A stretch of DNA of 64,000 nucleotides from assembly GCA_003342815.1 (NCBI GenBank), contig PTEX01000006.1:3231338-3295337 (forward strand), read 5' to 3'. The position numbers and the translations under genes were made by a program. This stretch comes from Eudromia elegans. Taxonomy: Eukaryota > Chordata > Aves > Tinamiformes > Tinamidae. A model generated the notes under the pieces. The model had not been told where the DNA came from. It saw only the letters and a list, made by a program, of their open reading frames with translations, and ran no database searches. Of this stretch, positions 1-51,786 are shown piece by piece (position 1 is the first letter of the stretch; each line of letters opens with the position of its first letter).

Positions 1-722
1 TCGTACAGGACACCATTGGATTTCATTAACAGGGCCACTGTGTTTAGCTATATGAAATACTAAATTTCGGGGGACTTCAGATAATCTGTATTTGGATCCC
101 AAGTAGGGCTTAATTAATTCAGAGACCTTTGTCACAGTCTGCTCTCCTGAAATAGCTAATTTAACATGACAGTTTGAATTTTCTCCCTGATGAGATTCTT
201 TTTCTTCGCACATTATAGAATTTTCTTGACGCAGCCTTTTAGGGATATATGGTCTAATTCCCTTTACAGAAGTAATACTGTCTTTATGTATTCGCTTCTG
301 AGAAGAAATGCCAGAGTTTATTGAAGAGCCTGATGCTTGTTCATAGTTTCTGTAGGTCATGCATAATGCAGTGTGGTTAGGGAGAGCCCTCCCGCAATAA
401 GGAGATGTCAAATCAGTGTTATTATTCTGGGAATAGCGCTCAGGGGGATCTTCACAAACAATGCCCAGGCCAGAACTGTCAGCGTTCTCAGTATGTTGCA
501 TTTCATACACTGCTTTTGTGCCCAAACTATCAGGTGCAAAGCTCTGAACATGATTTACAGAACTCAGAAGGTTTTTTCCTCTACTAGATGTATCAGGAGC
601 CTCAGTCTTTTCCATTTCTTCTTCAGAGTCTGAATCATCATAAGCAACCAACGACAAACTCATTATGGCTACATACAGCAACCTGCGGAGATCCCAGTGC
701 TGCAATCCTCCAGAAGAACGAT
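1..722 (-). CDS. WDR25: WDR25, first coding exon (WD repeat-containing protein 25), partial
   Basis: The minus strand is open from an ATG at 663-661 to the window edge (221 codons, continuing outside). The product begins [19 protein letters not shown], which resembles the acidic N-terminus of vertebrate WDR25. A low-complexity region follows, and the exon end reads [14 protein letters not shown], typical of the start of the first WD40 blade. A good acceptor (pyrimidine-rich stretch, then TTGTAG) puts the exon start at 722, so 59 nt of 5' UTR precede the ATG in this exon. The family is a WD40 beta-propeller related to the splicing factor CDC40/PRP17, and its exact role is poorly known. The remaining exons lie beyond position 1. 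The identification rests on N-terminal similarity, the WD start and synteny next to WARS1. Confidence 0.88.
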
Positions 723-1961
723 CTACAACAAAGAATTGATCATTCAGAATGCAATTCATTATAGATTCTACAGTTTGAATCAGTTAAAGCATATTTAAAT
801 CCTTTTACAAATATCCATGCCTTCATTACTGTTTACCTGTATATTTTATTGCTTTATTATAACACATCCATATATTCAATTATGCAACATCATTTGTCTC
901 TAAGCACTTTATATACATTTTTAATGCATTGCAGAGATATACTTGCATACCACAAAAAGCAAAAATGAACAGAAAATGAAAACAGTTATACATAAGTACT
1001 GTAAATTACTTTAACTGTACTTGCTACAGCACTTTTTCCTGAGACTAATGCCATTATGCAGTGCTTTGGGATGTACTTCTGTAGTAATAAAAATATTTCC
1101 AGTTTGGAGCAAGGCTAATGCTCATTTCTTTTGAGTTCTCTGCACTGTGAAATAGCATAAATGTGTTTGACTCTCAGCTAAAAGGGAGTAACTAGATTAC
1201 TCATGTGTTAAAAATTTACAAGGACCCTTTCAAACTCTATCCATAGTGTAAATTGCATATAGCCTGTATTTTACTTAACAGATACCAAAAGATGCAGTGA
1301 ATTCACTGTTTCCATCAACTTTTATAGAGGGAAGGGAAGGGGGCGTGGCGGGAAAAAAGCATGGAGGCATTTCTATGGAGTAAGCACTTCCAAGTTCCTG
1401 TGAGTAAGAACACACATATCAAGGCTGGATATGCATCACACTGAATAATCTAGAACCAACAATCCAGTCTTTTTCCAAGAGCTTGCACAGAAGATGTGAA
1501 AAACAGGTTTAGCTCCATTCAATAAATGGGTTTGTCCAAAAAAAACCCCAAATAAACAGACTTCTACTAGTTACAGTCAACAACTCTAATTGAGCATCTA
1601 GACAAAATACAGCGACAGCATTCCTCCTTCATTTTCACACTTAGCTGCTAGCACTGGTCACACGATGCAACTTAACACTTTCAGATCAGATGCTGAACTC
1701 CTTGCTGCAGAGATGCAACACACATTATGCAGAATGTTGGAATTCAGAAGGATTGCTCACTCCAGAGTCAAGATCATATTTTAAGTTAAAAAACAAATGT
1801 AAAAACTGTTTAAAAGGTGGTTTAACCTTTAAAAGGTATTACAGATTGCGGTCTGTATTCTGCAATGAAATTTTCAAGGACAGACACAGACATCAAGCTC
1901 CTATTAAAACACACACATATATATTCAGGAAACCTCCTCAAGATAAATGACTAGTATTTAC

Positions 1962-2071
1962 CTGGAACAAGGTGAGTAACTTCAGTCACATAAGAAGTAT
2001 CACGATCTCCCTCTAGAGGACATTCTAGCTCTTTATCTGAACTTCATACTTGATAAAAGCAGTGACAGAAA
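1962..2071 (-). other. WDR25: Probable 5' leader exon of WDR25
   Basis: On the minus strand a strong acceptor (CTTGCTTTTTCAG) ends at 2072 and a strong donor (CCAG, then GTAAAT) follows 1962. They define a 110-nt exon upstream of the first coding exon. Joined to 722, its last reading frame runs open into the ATG at 663 but contains no in-frame ATG of its own and has a TGA upstream. Two short out-of-frame ATGs are present. I therefore call it untranslated. It is predicted from splice signals only, and transcript data could show it to be optional or absent. Confidence 0.5.
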
Positions 2072-2960
2072 CTGAAAAAGCAAGCGGAAAAACTCCTCCT
2101 CTCAAACAGTACAAATTTATAATTTATTAAAGCACCATTCCACTTAAATAACACCTAGAAGAAAAAAAGCTCCAGCACAAGCATTAAAGAACAGCATCAG
2201 CAGTAAATAAGTGTCCTTCCTCCCACAGTTCAGCTCCGTGAACTAACTGTTATCAAATATAACAATAATAAAACACATTGAAGAATTGCAGTCCAAGATC
2301 ACCATAATCCCTTTAAGTCAAGCTAAAGTTCCAAAAACAGATGTACAAAATACTACAGTCTACTTCAGTAATGGGAATAGCGGTCACTATAACCAACCAT
2401 GATCAACCACAACCTGACTGTTTGAGAAGAACAGATTAAGATTCTGACCTCGGTTCAAAAAGTTACAGCTTGAAACAGACAAGAAAGAATAGAGTGAGAC
2501 TTCACAGCTACTCTACACTTCTAAAGCTGCTCTATTCTGCTTTCAGACACAGAGGGGGGAAAAAAAAAGTAGAAGTCAAAATCAAGACCACTCCTTGAAC
2601 ACACCAGGTAAGAGGTTTCCCTTAGGACACCAGAGGAATGCAGTCAAGCTATATTTGACCAACAAGCTTCTGCACACATAACTCACCAGCCTCAGTTGGT
2701 GGGAAAAGCAAAGCATTTCTGCCAGCTGAAGACTTAACATCTAACTTTCTTCTCTACATCAACATTGTCCCAAAGTTTGCCACTTTGGGCTAACTAAACA
2801 AAACTCCAAACCAGAGCACGCTGCACTTTGCTGCAAACACAGCAGACTTTTAACATCCGCTTTAACCAGCTCACGGCATTGCTGACGTGCTTTATAACGC
2901 AGCCAGCTACCAGAAAGCCGGCAGGGTAAAGAGTAAAATATCCCGATAGCAAAAGGCCAA

Positions 2961-3029
2961 GGCCCCGGCCCCGGCCCCGGCCCCGGCCCCGGCCCCGGCC
3001 CCGGCCCCGGCCCCGGCCCCGGCCCCGGC
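2961..3029 (-). repeat. (GGGGCC)11 hexanucleotide repeat at the start of WDR25 intron 1
   Basis: Eleven perfect GGCCCC units plus GGC are read on the plus strand, which is GGGGCC on the WDR25 sense strand. The tract starts four bases inside the predicted 5' splice site (intron start at 3033). It is unbroken. Its three minus-strand frames would encode Gly-Ala, Gly-Pro and Gly-Arg dipeptide runs. G-runs of this kind form G-quadruplexes in DNA and RNA. Assemblies often collapse such tracts, so the true allele length may differ. Confidence 0.97.
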
Positions 3030-3033
3030 GTAC

Positions 3034-3130
3034 CTGCCGCACCGTCGCCGGTGGCGCAGCACGCTCTGCTGACGCCCGCTCCGGCCTTTAAAGCGCGCCG
3101 GGCGGAAACACACCGTCTTGCTGGAACGGT
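3034..3130 (-). other. WDR25: WDR25 first (non-coding) exon, start uncertain
   Basis: A consensus donor on the minus strand (GGCAG, then GTACG) ends an exon at 3034 inside the CpG island. The sequence above it is very GC-rich, as expected for a TATA-less start. The upstream limit (about 3100-3150) is a guess, because no transcription start can be read from sequence. The intron that follows begins with the GGGGCC repeat. This exon would splice to 2071 or directly to 722. Confidence 0.45.
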
Positions 3131-3700
3131 CCCGCCTGCCCCATGCACAGCCGGTGGGAAGGGGTATGGGAAGAGGACGGAAAAGCCCCGTTCCAGTGGC
3201 AGTAGCCGCCGGTCACTCGGCGTCTCCTGCCGAGGCGCGCCTGGCGGGGGTGGGTAGGGAAGCAGGCGGGAAGGAAAGGTTCCGGAGGGAGCATGTTCCC
3301 AGCCGGGCTGCAGTGAGCGGAGTGCCGGTGGAGAGTGATGCAATGGCAGTGACAGCGGCGCCCTGAGGAGCGACGGTGCGAGCGGCGGCCGGGCCGGAGC
3401 CGGGCCGGGAGGGAACCGGGCCGGGAGGGTGCTGGGAGAGCGGGCTGGGCCGGGCCGGGCCGGGCGATGCAAGCCCGTGGAGAGCCAGGCCGGCGGCGCG
3501 GGCGGGCAGCAGGGCGCTCGGCGCCCGGCGATGCCGAGCGGCGCTTGGCGGGGCCAGGGGACGCGGGTGTCAGCGCTGCGGCGCGGGGCGCTGCATGGGC
3601 CCGACCCGTGCGACGGGAGCGGCGCCGGTGCCCGCGGAGCTGCCGTGTGGCCCCGGGAAGCCCCGGTGAGCGGGCCGCGTGCGGGCTCTGCCGCGAGGTT
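3040..3700. promoter_or_regulatory. CpG-island bidirectional promoter of WDR25 and WARS1
   Basis: The segment is extremely GC-rich and dense in CpG, with many GGGCGG/CCGGGCCGGG-type motifs. It separates the divergent WDR25 (minus) and WARS1 (plus) first exons by only a few hundred bases. No TATA box is evident. Several long open frames cross it on both strands, but their Arg/Pro/Gly/Ala composition is what random GC-rich DNA gives. A shared promoter is inferred from the head-to-head layout. Confidence 0.75.
3376..3665 (+). other. WARS1: WARS1 first (non-coding) exon, start uncertain
   Basis: A good donor (CCCCG, then GTGAGC) at 3665/3666 marks the likely end of the WARS1 first exon in the CpG island. 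The start coordinate is only indicative, because the transcription start cannot be read. In vertebrate WARS1 the first exon is untranslated and transcript starts are multiple, so other first exons in the 3.4-kb first intron are possible. Confidence 0.4.
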
Positions 3701-6700
3701 TTCACGAGAAAATTAATGGTTAATCTGCACGAGAAGCTGTAGAAAGCAGCGTATGTTGGAGTAGTCCTCAAGGCACCTTCCCTGTGGTGTCTGTGGACAT
3801 GCCACCAGCTTTAATTTCATCCTTCTGCCATTGTTTTAATTCAAAGAGACTTGGTGCATTTTTCAGGAGCGTAAGTGCTGTTAGGTTTAGGTACTTCCAT
3901 TCATCATGGAATTGAATGAAAATTTGTCACTTTTGTAACATTAATTTCTTTGGAATGTATCTTCATGCAGTGTTTGTTATGAAGAAGTGCTTCTCTATTC
4001 CACATTTCCCAGTTCTCTGCACTTACAAAATCAGAGCCCAAGCAGTGAAAATGATCGTAGATCTGTGATAATTATTCAGCTGGGAAGATGACAACAACAA
4101 GAGGATGTTTCTGATACCTCTTCCCAGGATTTTTTTTCTGAGCTTTATCTGATTAATGCAAAATTCTTAAATATTCACAAGTGCAGTTACCCATAAGATA
4201 GGAAGAACAAGCATGTAATTCTTGGCTTTCAAGTTTACACTGTAATATGGTAGCATTTAAGTTAATCTTTGGCTCTGGTCTTAAATGTCTTAATAGTTCG
4301 TTTTCAATTATCCCGTGTTTTTTTTTTCCATCTGATAATGTTTGTGTAAATTAATTAACATGTCATGTTTGGTTGTGTAATATCAGTAAGAAATGAAGAA
4401 TAATGATACTAGAAAAAAATGCAGGAAATCCATTTGTTTCTTTGAATAATTCAAAACTGCATTAATGAATTTCAAAAACTTGAAGACCTCTGTCCTATGT
4501 AACTGAATGTCCAGGCTGAATTCCTATAGCAAACCTTTAGCTTTACTGTATTAGTGATTAGGTAACTAGAGATAAGGATAGCAGTCTGTATTTTTCTGCA
4601 TTCTGCAGTCCTTATACCCTCCCCTCTGGCTGCATCGACACGATTACTTTTGCAGCTTCCTACCAAAAATGCATTCTCATTTGGGAATGTTTGCTCAGCT
4701 TAAAGGCATAAAAGCCTTTCAAAAAGGAGGCAATTTATTAGTAAGAACGTACACTCCAGAATTAAGTTAAAAGGCCCCCCAGACACAATTTGCTTAACAG
4801 CAAAGAAACTTCCTGGTTGTGTTGTTGTTGTTCAGGGCTTTTTGGTTTTGTGGGTTTTTTTTGTAAAATTTGAAGCCAGCAAGTATAGCTGGGGTATTTC
4901 TTCAGAAAGATGGTGAGTTAGTTTCATAAGTCTTTCCTAGTATGGATTTATTCTATATATGCTGTTTTCCAGTTAAATAACTTGTGACCATGATAAAGAG
5001 GAAAATACTGATATTCAAATAAATAAATGTAAGTTAATTATAGAATACATGAGAATTATTTTATAGGTTTTCAGTTATCTCTTTAAGATAATACTGTCAG
5101 AGTTCTAATAATCAGACTCCAAGGGATCAATATTAGGTTCAAAACTTAAAGATCACTGATAAAATTCAATTCAGTCTTATTTTAGTCAATTATGCTATTT
5201 AAGTTTGGTATCCATGTCTGTGTTAATATACTACACTAACAGCCTTAGCAAGTAAATGCACACACTTTTCATCTTTCTTACTGGTGCTCAACCAAAGCTG
5301 AAAGCTGGGAACCCTGCAGCTGTCTAACAAACAGCAAGACCTCCTTAGATTTTCTAGGCCTTCAAAGGCTACTCACAGTGGCAGTTTAAATATGTGCTTT
5401 GTAAATATAGCCAAGGTTGCAGCTAGCCTGATTATTTTGTAAAAGAAGGTTTGATACAGTGCTAAAAAGCTAATGCAAATATTATGGGCTTCTTATTGTT
5501 GTGGTAAAGGAGAAACAAATGAATGTGTTTTTTATTAATAGCTTTTATTGTTTACTTAAGTCTATACATCTAATCTGTTCATTTAGATACTCACTTTTCT
5601 TACTTTAAGGCTTCTTTTCAGAAGAGAAATGGCAGTGATCCCAGAGCACAAATCCTTCTACAATTCCATTTAATATGAAATCTTTAATGGGCAGCCTGCA
5701 AGGTATATTTAGGCCTGTTTACACCATCATGAGGAACAGGATTTCAGTGGCTGTTTTAGTGTCTCTGAACCTTCAAGTAACTCTCTTTGAATAAATACCA
5801 CTGTCCATATAATTCTTTAGAAGTCAAGGTATTTAATTGACATGAAAATCTTCCTATATGGACCAAAAAGTGGGCACAGCAAGATAGAAAATGCTTAGGG
5901 TGAATGCTGTTTTTCTAATACATCACTCTTTGCAGCTTAATAAGAGGCCAGCTTACTCTTCCAAGTTGCGTTACTTTTGTCACTATCACATCTGAATACA
6001 ATATATATAAAAAGCATCAGTTTGTGAATTGAGATGACCTTCCTAAAGAAAAAAAGATACAAAATAGCTTGGGTCAGTCACAGCAGATTGGGTTGTAGGA
6101 CTTTGCCAGGGTGGCCAAGTTAGTGTTCATAGGAAACTTTACTTCTACCTATGATTAGGACTTTAACAAGTATTTCATGTTACAAGAATTGTATCAAAAC
6201 GTTTTATAATTATCTGTATCCTTTTCTGTGTACCCTGCTCTGATGATATGTTTATCCCGAAAGAATCATTTTGTGATAGTGGCATTTTTACATATAATGT
6301 TATTTTTCAGACAAATTATATACTCCTCTCCATTTTTAAAACTTTTTCTTCTGAGTAAATATGGTAAACTCACTGTAATTGGAACCATAATGGTTTTAAA
6401 AGTGGCTCTCACAGACCAAGTTAATGCTTGTTTTTGCTTAGTTTCAAATATTTAAACAGCACATTGCTTGATTTTTTTTTTTTAATAAAAAAAATATTTA
6501 GAGCCCATGTGCTTCAAAAACCCTAATAAAGAGCTACTGAGTTTGAACAACTTCTTAAAATAAAATATCTCTGCCTCTGCAGTTGAAATATGTTTTCACT
6601 GTCATGGCAGGCAGTAGCAGCCTCCCCATATTTATGACATCAGTCTGTAAAGACCGTGTATCAGGTGATTTTTGAAATGTTAGAAGAAGAAACTCCTGTA

Positions 6701-7101
6701 GCAGCAGATATTGCTGTGTCTCTGCACATATGTAATATAATAAAATGGAAGTTAATCCAGTGTAATCCATATCACATGAATTTCCCTTCTTTGAAATGCT
6801 AGGGTGTATACTAAGATGTATATTAACTAGTATTATGTGAGGGAGAACTTAGTTATGACACATTTATAGATCTTAACTAAAGGGATAAAGATCAATATGT
6901 TTGTGACATAGAACAGTAATAACTTTACTTGTTCTAATGTGATTCATAACCAAAATTGTATGCTTGCTTAAGCATACGTCATTTAGCATTTTGTATTTTA
7001 TGAATTACTCGCTTGTAAGCTATGCAGTTGTAGTTTTCCACAGTCTTCAAATGGATGAAATTAAGTATGGGGTCAATATACTTTTTATATTTTTATTCCA
7101 G
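3666..7101 (+). other. WARS1 intron 1, no gene seen
   Basis: AT-rich intronic sequence between the CpG-island exon and the leader/start-codon exon. I see only short T-runs and no recognisable repeat family, RNA gene or coding exon. Its open frames are all short and unlike known proteins. It ends in an acceptor (TTTTATTCCAG) at 7101. Confidence 0.6.
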
Positions 7102-7273
7102 CATTCTAATCTTGAAGATATGCATAAAAGAATAAAACACACTCTTTATCACCCTACAGTTCTACTTCAGTTTGATGCTACCGTTTTGAGTCTACAAACT
7201 GAAAAACTGGAAGACTTATCTAAAGAAGATTTATCTAAATAGTAGATAAAAAGACATTTTACACTCCTGGAAA
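7102..7273 (+). other. WARS1: WARS1 5' UTR part of the start-codon exon, with an upstream ORF
   Basis: The acceptor at 7101 gives 172 nt of leader before the ATG at 7274. Inside it, an ATG at 7120 opens a 40-codon reading frame ending in TAG at 7242, 31 nt before the main start. The uORF product is Lys/His/Leu-rich (MHKRIKHTLYHP...) and I recognise no family. A uORF of this size would be expected to reduce initiation at 7274, if the exon is transcribed as drawn. Confidence 0.55.
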
Positions 7274-20857
<13,584 letters not shown>

Positions 20858-26461: not shown

Positions 26462-29400
26462 CTATTTTTCATGTGTGAGATGACTCGTAAACCTCAGCAC
26501 AGCCTCGTACGTCACGAACACAACCATGTTGACAGGGAAGGCGCGCAGGCAGTTGAGGCCGAGTCCCTTGCAGAGCACCTTGACTCCCTCCTGCCTCACG
26601 CTTTCCCGCGCGCAGTGCACGAGGCCTCTGTACTTGTGCTGTGCTGACTCGTCCGTTTGCAGCCGGGATTTGAGGACATCCATGGGGGTGGCCAGTCCCC
26701 AGGCCAGGACCCCAGCAAAGCCGCCGGAAAGCAGCACAACGAGGAAACCTGCGAGCGAAGAGGAAGGGGCTTAACTTGAGCACTGGGCTGCCACAGCTAC
26801 GTGAATCTCCGGTGTATTTTCTGCAGCTGCCCATTTAAGGCTTTCCCGATCTAATTACACAAATAATTTTAGGAACAGAAAATGGAACAGAAAGCACAAA
26901 ACTGAAATGTTGCTGTCTTGCATGCTTGGGCCTGCCCACGGTGTCAAGCTGGGATGACTGCATTAACATGACTGCACTCCTGTAGGCTCTCTAGCATTTT
27001 TGAAATGCTTTTCCATCAAATGTCGCTGGAATTCCGATCCTTTCCCTGGATTCAGCCAGCCTGGGTGGTCTCCGTCAAGGAATTTGCCTTCGCAGGCCCC
27101 TTGTGTCTGCCTCCCCTCCACCACGGAGCAATCTAAACAGCACGCTCCAGAGACCAGCGCCCGGCATGCGGCGCCTGGAGCAGCGACCACCGCCTGACCC
27201 GCTCTGGCAGAATAGAGGGAAAAAGAGCTGCAGAACACACAGCGAGTCCAGCAAACGCGGAGCAGGGGCGTGCGCATGGCCAAACAGCAAACTTTGCTCC
27301 TTGCAAAGGGGAGGAAGAGCAGGAGCTTTTTCCACGAGCTGCTTAGCAAGTGCTACCTTTCTAACCCGCGTTTCTTTTCAGCAGCTAATTTGCATGGCTC
27401 TTGCAGGTGTGTATTCCTGGTGATCTCATGCAAAACATGTGGCCTCTCGGCTTCACAGCGGGCTCGTTCGGCCCGCACTGTGCTGGCCCGTGCGGAGGCA
27501 GCGGCCCTTTCAACACGGCGTGAACAGAGCGCCATCAGCCCGTCACCGAGGCGCTGAACCGCCGCAGCCTGGGAATGCTTAGGATTATTTTCCTATTCCT
27601 CAGGAACATTCCCTTTGCTACATGGAGAAACCTTGGTTTGTCTCCCTGGTGTTTTCTCCAAGGTCGAGGTAGATAGTTGCTTTTTAGGGCTAAGTCACCC
27701 ACTGGAAAACTGGTTTTGTTCTGGTACCGCGTCTCTGCAATGGGTGTTCAGGGCAGATGCAGCTGGGAAATGCTGCTCTCAGTACTGCAGCTATAGGCAA
27801 GAATGAACCCGAAATGCATAAGTGCTTCCCTGCCTGAACTGTTCCAGTGAGGAATGTGCCAGGAGGGAGAATGCCCTTGCCCTGGGTCACCCTCCCCGCT
27901 GCTGGAGGAGGGGGAGCCCCTTCTGCGAGACAGGGAAATAATGAAACGTGCCCCTCTCAAGGGACATTTCCGAGTGAGGCCTCCTCAGTGCTGGGCGATG
28001 CCTCCTGAGAATATCTTTTCCTCTGAGCACGGTACCACGTGAGCGAGCTGTTTTTTGCAGAGCAAAAGGCAGAGCAAGCCTCTCGTACCTAGCAAAAGGC
28101 AGAGCAAGCCTCTCGTACCTACCTGGTTTGTTTTTCCCCTCTGGTGTAAGCCAGTTGCACAGAACAGAATAGGTAAGGAAATATATCGCAGAGGAGGAGC
28201 AGTCCCTGCAGAGCAACGCAGAGCAGCCTTTGTAGAGGCCCCCGAAACCTTCCTCCTTCGCTATCACCCTCAGGCAGTGCAGGGATCCTCGGTACTTGGG
28301 CTTGGAGGCGGGATGGGGAGATGCCGCGGACGGATGCGGTCGCCTCTGCGTTTGCATCCGGACTTTGGCCACCTCGCTAGGGGTCATCAGCATAACCTGT
28401 GAAGGAGGAGGACGGGATTTGAACCTTGGCAGCAGCAGCAGGAAACGCAACCCGAGTTCAGCCACCTTACGTGGTCCTTATGTGGCCGCTCTGCGGCCCG
28501 AGCCCCCGGGCAGATCGTGACCCCCGGCACCAGAGCGGGATTTGGCTCTCCCTCCAATGCCCTTCCCACTGTTTACCTACCCGGACGGCACCTGTGCCGC
28601 TTCCAGCAAGGACAATGTCCAGCTTGGAGGGCTTTGCGTCGGCGGCGCCGTATCGCCACTTGCAGATGCTGCGGAGGAAGTTTCTGTAGGTGCCAAACGA
28701 AACAGAGGAAATCAGTGATACCGAGAAGACGGAGGCAGACACGCCTTTGTAAAAGCCCCAGACCTGGGTGGAAACAGAGGAGAGAGAAAAAAAAAAGACA
28801 ATTTTAAAAAGGGAGAACAGCAAGGGATCCACTCTAAAACCCTGCCCTGGTATTGCTGAGCCAACCTTATTTCTGTTTCTATTACTGCTGGCGAAGCTGA
28901 GCTGGATGCTGAGCGTTCTGCCAGGGAACAGCTCTGTGTCCGTGCGGCCTGTCCCCCCACAGGAGAGCAGCGGCTCTGCTGCCCCGGAGGCCTCTGCTCC
29001 TGCTCCCCGAGCAGCAGCCCCAAGGCACCCGCCCCTTGGAGGAGCCGCTCCTGCGGGCACCCACCTTTTCTGTCCTGTAGGTCTCTTGAATGCAGTGCCA
29101 GATTCCTCTGTAACGCCTTTCCGTCTGAATCCTCACCTGGGAACACAGGGGCAGCTTTGACACATGGACAGCACGTGTAAAAATGTGCTTTTTAATCCAG
29201 TAATGCTTTACCATCAAACCAGTTAGTTAATCATGAAACAGCATTCCTGAACGATTTAAGTTGTTTAAAAAGAGCAAAAATCCCACATCCAAATGAGCAG
29301 AGTGACATGAAGAGAGAGTTGAATGGAACAAAGATTAAAGCATTCGGTTACCAGACTGGTTTTCTTAAAAGGGGGGCAAAAAAAGGCACAAGGGTCTGTT

Positions 29401-43989: not shown

Positions 43990-45070
43990 CTGGCTCGAGA
44001 TTTCCCATTGCTGCTTCACACCTCGGGTCAGCTGGGCGGGTCCGCTCCGGGCACGGCCCGCGAGGCACAGAGCGGCTCGGAGAGGACCCCCTGCAGCCGC
44101 CAGGCCCCACGGCGGCGGCGCTGGGGACGGCGAGGCCGGCGGGGGGAGCGGCCGGGCNNNNNNNNNNNNNNNNNNNNNNNNNNNNNNNNNNNNNNNNNNN
44201 NNNNNNNNNNNNNNNNNNNNNNNNNNNNNNNNNNNNNNNNNNNNNNNNNNNNNNNNNNNNNNNNNNNNNNNNNNNNNNGTCCGGGCGCGGCGGGGCGGAG
44301 CGCGCGGCCCGGCCCCCCGCCGCGCCGGGGCGCTAGAAAGGGGGCGGCGGCAGCAGCACGGACGGTAACGGCAGCGGCGGTAACGGCAGCGCGGGAGGCC
44401 GGGTCCGCCGCAGCAAGCTGCCGTCATGGCGCTGGATTTCCTCGCTGGATGCGTTGGCGGTGAGGAGCGGGGCGGCCTGCGGGGCTGCGGCGCGGCAAGG
44501 GCCGCGGCTCGGAGCCCGAGGCTGCTCGGAACGGGGAGCTGAGGGCCGAGGCCGCCCGAGCCGGGGCCGCTGCCGGCTACCGGGGCCGCGGGGCGGGCGC
44601 TGCCGGGGAGGCGGCAGCCCCTGGGCTGGAGCCGCTTCCAGCCCGCGGTTACATCACGAGCGGAGCGTGTGTGTAGCTCTGTGTACGTGGCCTGTCTCAT
44701 CCTGCTCCTATCCAAGACATCGACCGTTTTGTTTTATTTATTTCTGGCTTCCTCCGTGGTGAGGCTCCCCCCAGGAGAGGCTCGCTCCTCATCCGTCTCG
44801 GCGGTTCTCCTTGCCCCGCTCCCCTTGCCGTCCTGCCGCGGGAGGGCTCTGCGTTCTCCCCCGCTTCACCCCAGTCGCATCTCCGGGATGTTGCGCGCTG
44901 AACGGGGCCAGCGCGTGCGGCCGCCTCTGCGACGGGGACCGTCCTGCGCCTCCGCTGGCCCTTGCAGCGTCCTTGGGCAGCCTGGAGCCTTCATCCCCGC
45001 GCGGGCGCGGAAGGGACACCCGCCCCTGGCCCTGGGCGGGAGGGAGGCGCGCTCTCGTTCCGCACGCGTG
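43990..45070 (+). promoter_or_regulatory. SLC25A29: CpG-island promoter of SLC25A29, interrupted by an assembly gap
   Basis: GC- and CpG-rich sequence surrounds the SLC25A29 start codon. Its upstream half is cut by the N run. A short direct repeat CGGTAACGGCAGCG (twice, about 44364-44391) precedes the ATG and is likely in the 5' UTR. The transcription start is not visible. Confidence 0.7.
44158..44278. other. Assembly gap (121 N)
   Basis: A run of N inside the GC-rich SLC25A29 promoter. The true size may differ. Open frames drawn across it are meaningless. Confidence 1.
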
Positions 45071-48000
45071 TGTGTGGGTGCATCCGAGCACGGTTTGTAC
45101 TCCTTGCTGCGGGCCAAGGACGTCAGCGGATTTAACTCTTTGTCCTGCAGCAGGAGAGGAGAGAGCATGTTTTGAGACTTGTCTCTTGATGCAAAATGTA
45201 TGGGTTCAGATTAAAGCAGATAACTAAAGGGTCAGCATGTGACTCCCAGAAATTCCTTTTTTTGGCAATGCATGCTCCTCCTGCACGTGCTCCCCGCCCC
45301 TCTGGAAGTGGGAAGGTCCGCATAGTGAAGGCGGCAGGCACGTGGAGCATCCTGCTTCACGGGAAACTGCTGATTTCTGCCCCCTGCATGGCCTCTGGCC
45401 GAGGCCAGGACCTGCTCCGGTGGGATAGAGTCCCACACCTCATCCCTGCGTGCAGGACTACAGCCTGGCTAAGGCACGGGGGCATCCAGCATTGCCTGCA
45501 GGCCTCAGCCCTCGCTCCAGCTCCTCATTGCAAGGACGCTCCTTAGCTGGCCTGCCAGCAACACCGTGTCCTTCTGCTTGAGATTAATACTGTGCCCCAG
45601 GACAACCGCAGCCCCAGTTTGGGGAAGAAAAGTCATGAACTGCCCTTTGTTTCGTTTCAGGTGCTGCCGGAGTGCTTGTAGGACACCCATTTGATACCGT
45701 TAAGGTGGGTCGATTATGAAATACTTCTGTCTCTGTGTAGGGAACTTGAAGTTATTCCAAGGAACGGGGGAGGAATTAAAATCCCCAGACACTGTAGAAG
45801 CTTTGATGGCAATCTTGGAATGAGTCTTTTGAGCTTATGAGTTTATAGTCTTGTGGAGTCTCCAGATCTTCAGAAGTGATTTTTTTTTTTTTGTGCGTGT
45901 GTCTAACTCGCCCAGTAACATGACACAAGCTGGCCTAAGCCACAAGTTCAGCAGCATAACAGCATCAGTTTATTTGGACACGTGATCTTGCATTTAACTT
46001 AATTTTGTTCTAAGCTTGTTTCTCTGCAGCTGTTTATCACTAACTGCTAAAATGGCCTCGACCTGCACCTGTAACACAAACCTCTATTAGGTTGAAATAT
46101 TTGCTCTTGTGGGATTTTTTTTTTTGTTTGCTTTCCTTGCCCTCCTCACCCCCAAGCTCTGCTACTTGCTCTTCAAACATTAATTTGTTATACTAGCCAC
46201 TGGGTGCAAGCGTACAAGCATGAAGCTTATTTGGAGCCTTTTTCCTCTTTTTTTTTTTTTTTGGCTTTCCAAGTGAAAACCTGATTTTGCTTATTCTGAC
46301 AATCATATAGCAGTATGCGTTATGCATGATTATACTAAGAGTAGCTAAGTTCTTCAAAGAGAAGATTTTTCTGGAAAGCTTTAAGGCCTTATGGGAGGCC
46401 CTTCAACAGGATCCCTAGTGCTCAAGCCCATTTTTCAAAATGGGATGATGACTTGAGTCACTTTTTGGCAGTCTTTTCCAAAGTCTCTCAGCGGAAGAAT
46501 AGAACAGGGAGTCCAGGATATTCGCTACTAAATTAATACATCAGATCACTTGACTGCAGCAGACAGCAATGCCACTTGCCATAGCTATATTTGGAAGAGG
46601 TCCCTGCCCTACTGCATTTAGCTGTGCAAAGGGCTGATGGTATTACAGAGGTCATCGCCATACTGAATATTCTAGCCACATGGTTAAAGCCATGCAGAAC
46701 ATTTCCTAGCTGGTGGGTACTAGTCCTTGTCTGTCAAGTGCAAGCTGTTCAAACAGTAAATATTGCATATATATTTCTCACCCTATGAGAAATCTGACTG
46801 TTAAGTAATTCTGTTGAATTCCAGTAAATATTTTTGGAGATGGTGTTATGCAGACTTGCACTTCTTAAGGCAGTACAGAAAAGGCTTTTTCTCGCTCTTC
46901 CCCCTTTTCCTGCCAAGTCTTATGTGGTTAACTCATGGTGATGGGTCATTGCACTGAAGCCAGCAAAACTACTAAAATTCCCTGCTCAGACTAAAGTTAA
47001 GCATGTGCGTTTCTTTCTAAAGTGGAACAGCTTAGAGTGCATGAAACTAAACACTTAAGTGTCTGCAAAATTGGGAGTCTAGTGCTAGTAGTCCTAGCAG
47101 CTCTATTAATGCAAAATAAGAACCATATTAGCTTCAGGAAAAAAAAATCTTGATGTACAGTGTTGCAGAATGGATTGCTTCCAGATGACTTTACTGCCTT
47201 TATTAAATCCAGGGTAGCACACACTTTTCATACCCTTAGAAGGGACAGCATCTCTTCCTAGGACAGCATCTTCATATTCCTCCTGATAGAGGAAAATATT
47301 GTTTGTGTTATCAGGTGGCTAGCACAGTCACTACTGTATGTGGGAGAAGTAACACTAAAACTGGTCTCTTAAAAAAATAAAGACATTGTATAAGTTGTTG
47401 TATATGTACATGTGTGTTAAGATTAACCCTTTTTTTTAATAGTACTATAGTGTTTAAAGGAATAGATGCATTAGATGTTAAGGTTTTAACCTAAGTGAAA
47501 GCTGCATAGATCAAGAATTCACCCTCAACTCCATTTCTTTTTTTTTTTTTTTTTTTTTTGAGTGATCATGTTTCACAGGCCCAAGTACGAGGAGGGAGGG
47601 GGTTGGTGGGACATGCAAGGAGATGAAATCTATAAAATTGCACTGAGAAACCCACAACTGAGCTGACCTCAGAAAAGGCAAGCTCTCTATCCCTGGTTTG
47701 TTGATGAAATGTTTAAAATTGCTTTTTTGCTTTTAACTGCCTTTACTTTCTGAGCTAGGGGCTGTCTTCATTAACAGCAAAAGTGTTACTTTGTTGTAGA
47801 TGACAGATAAGCCTCATCACGGGAGAGTTACCTAGTAAGTATAGCCCAGGTGAACACTTCTGTTTCTCTCAGTCTTAATTTATTCCAAAATGTAATAGTT
47901 CAAATAAAAATCTAAAATACATATGAAGCTTTTTGGTTTTTTATTTTTAAACTGATGTGTCCCTCTTATACATCTATGACATGGAGGGAGTGGGGGTTAA

Positions 48001-51000: not shown

Positions 51001-51786
51001 TATTATTATTTTTAAAAGTTTTTATCTTGCTTCTTCCCCTAGGCTTTTGGACTCTATAAAGGCATTGGGTCGCCAATGATGGGACTTACCTTCATTAACG
51101 CACTTGTGTTTGGTGTACAAGGAAATACACTTCGTGCCCTTGGAAAAGACACTCCTCTAAACCAGTTTATTGCCGGGTCAGCTGCAGGGGCTATTCAGTG
51201 TGTCATCTGCTGTCCCATGGAGCTAGCCAAGACAAGAATGCAGCTTCAAGGAACAGGTGAATACAAATTAAAGACAAAGAACTACAAAAATTCCCTGGAC
51301 TGTTTGATCAAAATCTATCGAAAGGAAGGGCTGAGGGGTATCAACAGGGGCATGGTCTCTACGTTCATAAGGGAGACACCAAGCTTTGGCTTCTACTTCC
51401 TGACCTATGACTGTATGACCAGATACTTAGGCTGCGAAGCTGAAGACAGTTTTGTTATTCCCAAGCTGCTGTTTTCAGGAGGGATATCAGGAATTGTATC
51501 CTGGCTCTCAACCTACCCTGTGGATGTGATCAAGTCCCGGCTTCAGGCAGACGGAGTTGGTGGAGTCACCCAGTACAAGGGCATTCTAGACTGTATGAGG
51601 AAGAGTTACCACGATGAAGGCTGGAGGGTGTTCACGAGAGGTCTGACCTCTACCCTGCTCCGCGCTTTTCCCGTTAACGCAGCTACTTTTGCCACTGTCA
51701 CCGTGTTCCTAATGTACATGAGGTCAGAGGACGACCTTCGGGAGTGTGAGCCAGGCCCAGCAATCCAGCAGCCTTCCAGTTTGTGA
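44426..51786 (+). CDS. SLC25A29: Mitochondrial basic amino acid carrier SLC25A29, complete (4 coding exons, 301 aa)
   Basis: Inner mitochondrial membrane carrier. The mammalian protein moves arginine, lysine and other basic amino acids; it was first described as a carnitine/acylcarnitine-like carrier (CACL). Coding exons: 44426-44459, 45661-45704, 50258-50341 and 51043-51786 (TGA). The product begins MALDFLAGCVGGAAGVLVGH. It carries the three family signatures HPFDTVKVRLQ, CPMELAKTRMQ and YPVDVIKSRLQ, plus GLYKG, and RAFPVN near the end. It ends in QPSSL, as in the human protein (303 aa). The last exon encodes 247 residues in one piece, unlike SLC25A47, where this part is split. The ATG sits in a good Kozak context (GCCGTCATGG). 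Confidence 0.96.
45705..50257 (+). other. SLC25A29 intron 2, no gene seen
   Basis: AT-rich intron of 4.55 kb. It contains poly-T tracts (the longest, T22, at 47538-47559) and no recognised repeat family, RNA gene or coding exon. Intron 3 (50342-51042) contains only an ATT microsatellite at about 50985-51010. Confidence 0.55.

Follow-up and report, generated by a model that had tools for sequence, protein, structure and literature searches.

Is the GGGGCC array in the promoter shared by WDR25 and WARS1 a C9orf72-like locus, or is it a promoter microsatellite? In this study, the array was analysed within the window, that is, the whole 64 kb stretch of Eudromia elegans DNA. The array is probably a pure GC-rich microsatellite that grew by slippage in the CpG-island promoter of the two genes and lies a little downstream of the WDR25 start. 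The CpG-island thresholds, the G4Hunter rule, the splice matrix and the transcription-factor motifs were entered by hand. The coordinates of the features are collected in Table 1.

Table 1. Features around the GGGGCC array and its neighbouring genes, by position in the window.
Feature	Position	Strand	Details	Basis
WDR25 first coding exon	1–663	-	runs off the window	protein matches
Rival 5' splice site	2681–2689	-	CTG/GTGAGT, +1 at 2686, score 6.22, rank 26 of 6394	hand-entered matrix
CpG island common to WDR25 and WARS1	2792–3838		called at GC 0.55 and CpG o/e 0.65	200-base steps
TATAAA, TATA-like	2891–2896	-	below the tract; repeat untranscribed if this is the WDR25 core promoter	motif scan
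TTGGCC, degenerate neighbour unit	2955–2960	-	2 mismatches; 3' edge of the tract	flank comparison
(GGGGCC)11, perfect array	2961–3026	-		unit count and Tandem Repeats Finder
Predicted 5' splice site	3028–3036	-	CAG/GTACGC, +1 at 3033, score 4.23, rank 73 of 6394 GT sites	hand-entered matrix
CTG in the poly-GA frame	3057–3059	-	33 nt upstream of the first full unit; -3 is G and +4 is C	frame scan
TTTAAA, TATA-like	3087–3092	-	above the tract; palindromic, reads on both strands	motif scan
Imperfect GGCCG/GGGCCGGGAG tract	3387–3465	+	G-rich in the WARS1 sense direction; includes a G4 motif, 3402–3464	Tandem Repeats Finder and pattern scan
Candidate WARS1 first-exon donor	3663–3671	+	CCG/GTGAGC, +1 at 3666, score 4.74, rank 54 of 6394	hand-entered donor matrix
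Presumed WARS1 start codon and partial WHEP domain	7274–7500	+	stretch as scanned	WHEP match below the Pfam curated cut-off

The initial annotation had reported eleven perfect GGGGCC units on the WDR25 sense strand, and this was confirmed by unit count and by Tandem Repeats Finder. The units run from 3026 to 2961 on the minus strand and read GGCCCC on the plus strand. Tandem Repeats Finder gave 2961–3029, with 11.5 copies, 100% matches and 0 indels. Including the partial first unit, the pure tract was 69 bases long (3029 to 2961, minus). The annotated end at 3036 took in the CAG of the predicted donor; the array proper ends at 3026 or, with the partial unit, at 3029. The description of the repeat as starting four bases inside the donor holds for the pure tract, whose partial unit begins at predicted intron position +5 (3029), and fails for the first full unit, which begins at +8 (3026). 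Among the flanking units tested against GGGGCC, TTGGCC alone resembled the motif, and the others differed by 3 to 6 bases. A single motif-like flanking unit is what would be expected of recent slippage.

No second run of at least 2 in-phase GGGGCC or GGCCCC units was found within the 64 kb window. The array was the only run of at least 3 units of any G/C-only hexamer in the window, and the only other G/C-only hexamer run, of 2 units, was GCGCGG at 44999. For comparison, 2000 sequences were simulated with a first-order Markov model of the surrounding island, the repeat being left out. The longest run was 0 units in 57 sequences, 1 unit in 1929 and 2 units in 14, and never reached 3. An origin of the array by chance is rejected, the simulated runs having a maximum of 2 units against 11 in the array. 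The survival of a 69-base pure tract in a promoter could mean selection.

The array lies in a CpG island between divergent genes, in agreement with the setting claimed for it earlier. On the left, the exon at 1–663 (minus; 221 aa scanned) had its best match, among the matches listed, in WDR25 of Apteryx owenii (173 of 222 identical), and the other avian WDR25 matches listed over the full query were at 62–70%. The protein database searched was clustered at 90%, and most full-length WDR25 records were outside the length range searched. A Pfam scan of the exon found no family, and its identity as WDR25 rests on the protein search. Together with the SLC25A29-like matches given below, the protein search points to a palaeognath, perhaps a tinamou. 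On the right, position 7274 (plus), which we take to be the WARS1 start, partly on the known WARS1 protein, showed a WHEP match of 31.6 bits against a curated cut-off of 32.5. With WDR25 on the minus strand left of the island and WARS1 on the plus strand right of it, the two genes stand head to head. The imperfect GGGCCGGGAG-type tract (3387–3465, plus) mirrors the WDR25-side repeat as a G-rich tract in the WARS1-facing half of the promoter. Immediately beyond the candidate first exon of WARS1, TTCACGAGAA at 3701–3710 (plus) loosely matched the interferon-type GAS pattern. WARS1 is interferon-inducible in mammals.

The GC skew of the plus strand was −0.20 at 2701–2960 and −0.15 at 3030–3100, both outside the repeat, and it was +0.19 at 3101–3300 and +0.25 at 3301–3700. 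The sign of the skew switches near 3100, also with the repeat left out, and the sense strand is G-rich downstream of each predicted divergent start. For both WDR25 and WARS1, G-rich tracts also fall on the sense strand. A sign change of this kind is the pattern of a divergent promoter and suggests a promoter centre near 3100. The repeat would then lie just downstream of the WDR25 start and be G-rich in RNA, and its sense transcription from the WDR25 side is plausible from the base composition. The negative skew extends well below the island. It is therefore not a clean start-site marker; it fits a general transcription asymmetry and does not place the start.

The repeat had been assigned to the 5' splice site of WDR25 intron 1. 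A predicted donor does exist at 3033; it is of moderate strength (rank 73 of the 6394 GT sites on both strands of the window, top 1.1%), and a stronger rival lies at 2686 (rank 26). These were the only minus-strand donors scoring above 4 between 2100 and 3700 with the hand-entered donor matrix. At the window rate (at least 73 such sites over 128 kb of strand), about 0.07 chance sites as good as 3033 are expected per 125 nt, and about 0.08 as good as 2686 per 400 nt. At these rates, neither donor is preferred, nor does either stand clearly above chance within its own stretch. Judged from sequence, the repeat may lie in the intron with a chance of roughly one half, in the 5'UTR with about a quarter, and in the upstream promoter with about a quarter or slightly less.

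If the repeat belongs to the 5'UTR, WDR25 would start above 3034, and its first exon would include the whole repeat and end at donor 2686. This placement is possible and would agree with the GC skew pattern and with the greater strength of the 2686 donor over 3033; donor 3033 likewise scores above most GT sites, and the near-equal chance rates of the two donors favour neither. The repeat would be upstream promoter DNA if WDR25 started below it, driven by the TATAAA at 2896–2891, with a first exon ending at 2686, which is the best minus-strand donor of 2100–3700 (6.22, rank 26 of 6394). This arrangement is doubtful, since the skew changes sign above the repeat and the TATAAA is close to the AT-richer margin of the island, where GC was 0.44–0.58 in 200-base steps from 2701 to 3000.

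The G-quadruplex potential proposed for the repeat was supported by the predictions: G4Hunter gave 1.59 over 3033–2953 (minus), and one G3+N1-7 motif spans 3026–2963 (minus). The 135 nt of RNA around the predicted donor folded to −86 kcal/mol. With a z of −0.72 and 45 of 200 shuffles as good, this fold shows nothing beyond composition, and RNA folding was rejected as proof of function. In one setting, the fold was modelled with 0 to 20 units; with at least 3 units, donor bases −2 to +4 were unpaired with a probability of at least 0.89, and without the repeat the probability was 0.02–0.71. The donor was paired in the 135-nt fold and in the G-quadruplex-enabled fold, the outcome depending on the flanks. 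Repeat-dependent opening of the donor, found in that one setting and absent from the other two folds, was rejected as grounds for a splicing claim. Within 3059–3028 (minus), GCAGGTACGC of the predicted donor can pair with GCGTGCTGC upstream of it, and the donor may sit in a hairpin to which the repeat does not contribute.

In humans, the GGGGCC unit of C9orf72 causes a motor-neuron disease when it is hugely expanded. For variants 2 and 3 of C9orf72, the repeat is placed 241 bp inside intron 1, and for variant 1 it falls within the core promoter; a CpG island flanks it on either side, and wild-type alleles carry 3 to 30 units (PMC5822839). Alleles of at least 7 units are called intermediate, and the expansion haplotype is shared from 18–20 units (PMC10870140), while expansions have 30–7950 units (PMC11632612). 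On the human scale, 11 units would fall among the wild-type lengths and be intermediate, below the length range tied to expansion. In yeast, breaks at (GGGGCC)15 were about 10-fold as frequent as at (CAG)85 (PMC11632612), so a modest fragility at 11 units is possible. The WDR25 array resembles the C9orf72 repeat in its GGGGCC unit, its G-rich sense strand, its predicted first-intron or promoter placement, its CpG-island setting and a near-cognate CTG in the poly-GA frame. It differs in its locus, in having 11 units, in its full units beginning at +8 of the predicted intron instead of +241, and in a weaker start-codon context. The initial annotation overstated the likeness when it called the position equivalent to that in C9orf72, whose intron 1 has the repeat only after 241 bp (PMC5822839). 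The disease parallel was drawn too far as well, given expansions of 30–7950 units (PMC11632612) against 11 here. That the array is independent of C9orf72 is true in a trivial sense, as it lies in another gene.

In C9orf72, a CUG in the poly-GA frame 24 nt upstream is used, with a perfect Kozak context of G/A at −3 and G at +4 (PMC5764992). The CTG upstream of the WDR25 array fails the optimal context, with C at +4 where C9orf72 has G; its resemblance to the CUG of C9orf72 is of interest, though CTG is a common codon. No in-frame ATG was found upstream of the repeat in the stretches scanned, in any frame, the scan of the poly-GP frame reaching to 3388. The minus-strand ATGs lie at 3294 and 3144 and, below the repeat, at 2879 and further. 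The array is also similar to the (CGG)n repeat of the human FMR1 5'UTR, a GC-only repeat in a CpG island, where the sense-strand GC skew increases across the repeat (PMC3990486). Unlike the FMR1 repeat, it is a hexamer, it is shorter, and its transcription is only predicted.

Three further explanations of the array were weighed. A premutation locus in the manner of C9orf72, which expands and yields foci and dipeptides, is very improbable. The pure GGGGCC array on the sense strand is common to both loci, a CTG stands in the poly-GA frame 33 nt upstream as a CUG does 24 nt upstream in C9orf72 (PMC5764992), and the breakage of (GGGGCC)15 in yeast, about 10 times that of (CAG)85, also speaks for it (PMC11632612). 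Against it are the C at +4 of the CTG, the lack of an in-frame ATG in the scanned upstream stretches, and the length, as the 11 units in this assembly fall short of an expansion to at least 30. The length itself might come from an error of assembly, most likely through the collapse of a longer array. A row of 121 N (44158–44278) lies beside a second CpG island (44210–45225). An N run in another CpG island suggests a scaffolded assembly struggling with GC-rich DNA; gaps in such DNA mean that the 11 units may be a minimum. As a single short read of ordinary length can span the 69 bases of the tract, whose flanks are unique on either side, and as neither N nor partial duplication lies close to it, an artefact is quite unlikely. 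It is unlikely, too, that the array is a maintained regulatory element, a G-quadruplex or R-loop patch that would hold the shared promoter in an open, unmethylated state or adjust the use of the neighbouring 5' splice site. The G4Hunter value of 1.59 and the G4 motif at 3026–2963 are in its favour, R-loops are reported to shield CpG-island promoters from methylation (PMC3990486), and at least 3 units freed donor bases −2 to +4 in one fold setting; the flank dependence of that fold, with the donor paired in other settings, counts against it.

A promoter microsatellite in itself is ordinary in birds. In chicken, duck and zebra finch, about 10% of genes are reported to have a 2–6 nt repeat of at least 6 perfect units within 2 kb upstream (PMC4203960). 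The WDR25 array, with 11 perfect units near the predicted start site, is a perfect promoter microsatellite of at least 6 units of 2–6 nt; the survey in that source took in 2 kb upstream of each start site. It is like the GC-rich bird promoter microsatellites (the CCG class and others) in being a short and perfect tandem array within the CpG island of a promoter, and unlike them in being a hexanucleotide, a class outside the 20 bird-promoter motifs tabulated in the same source (PMC4203960). Hexanucleotides are given as the rarest perfect class in 53 birds, at 0.56–3.45% (PMC9951716). Being of the rarest class and untabulated, the motif may be rarer than the word ordinary suggests, and a GGGGCC array in the WDR25 promoter is probably uncommon. 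Among open-licence PubMed Central papers, none mentioned both WDR25 and GGGGCC, and a search of the literature by titles found no report of a WDR25/WARS1 GGGGCC locus.

For the slippage-grown microsatellite, the following course is proposed. The array would have grown from a GGGGCC-like sequence in the shared CpG-island promoter and would yield G-rich RNA when transcribed from the WDR25 side. It may add to the tendency of this stretch to form R-loops and G-quadruplexes, a tendency known from other skewed CpG-island promoters, and its influence on WDR25 output would be at most modest. At 11 units, foci, notable dipeptide production and disease would all be unexpected, and the array could be explained without a dedicated function. 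The locus looks recent and is likely to be transcribed from the WDR25 side and to be prone to R-loops and G-quadruplexes.

A bolder form, rather improbable, is a bird GGGGCC locus unrelated to C9orf72 that varies between individuals, sometimes well above 18–20 units, with R-loops over the WDR25/WARS1 promoter and altered first-intron splicing. Such a locus would be a natural animal model of how GGGGCC repeats are kept in check. A tract that is polymorphic and transcribed would allow the limits on GGGGCC array length to be studied outside humans and C9orf72. Failing that, the array would be one more GC-rich promoter microsatellite, of use mainly as a warning that little about disease can be read from the motif by itself.

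Elsewhere in the window, Tandem Repeats Finder identified two perfect 30-base tandem copies (AGCAAAAGGCAGAGCAAGCCTCTCGTACCT) at 28061–28121, with mitochondrial-carrier-like reading frames nearby. A Pfam scan of 28467–29132 (minus) gave no family. The last exon of an SLC25A29-like carrier was matched at 51043–51786 (plus), with 234 of 236 residues identical in Nothoprocta perdicaria and 234 of 246 in Struthio.
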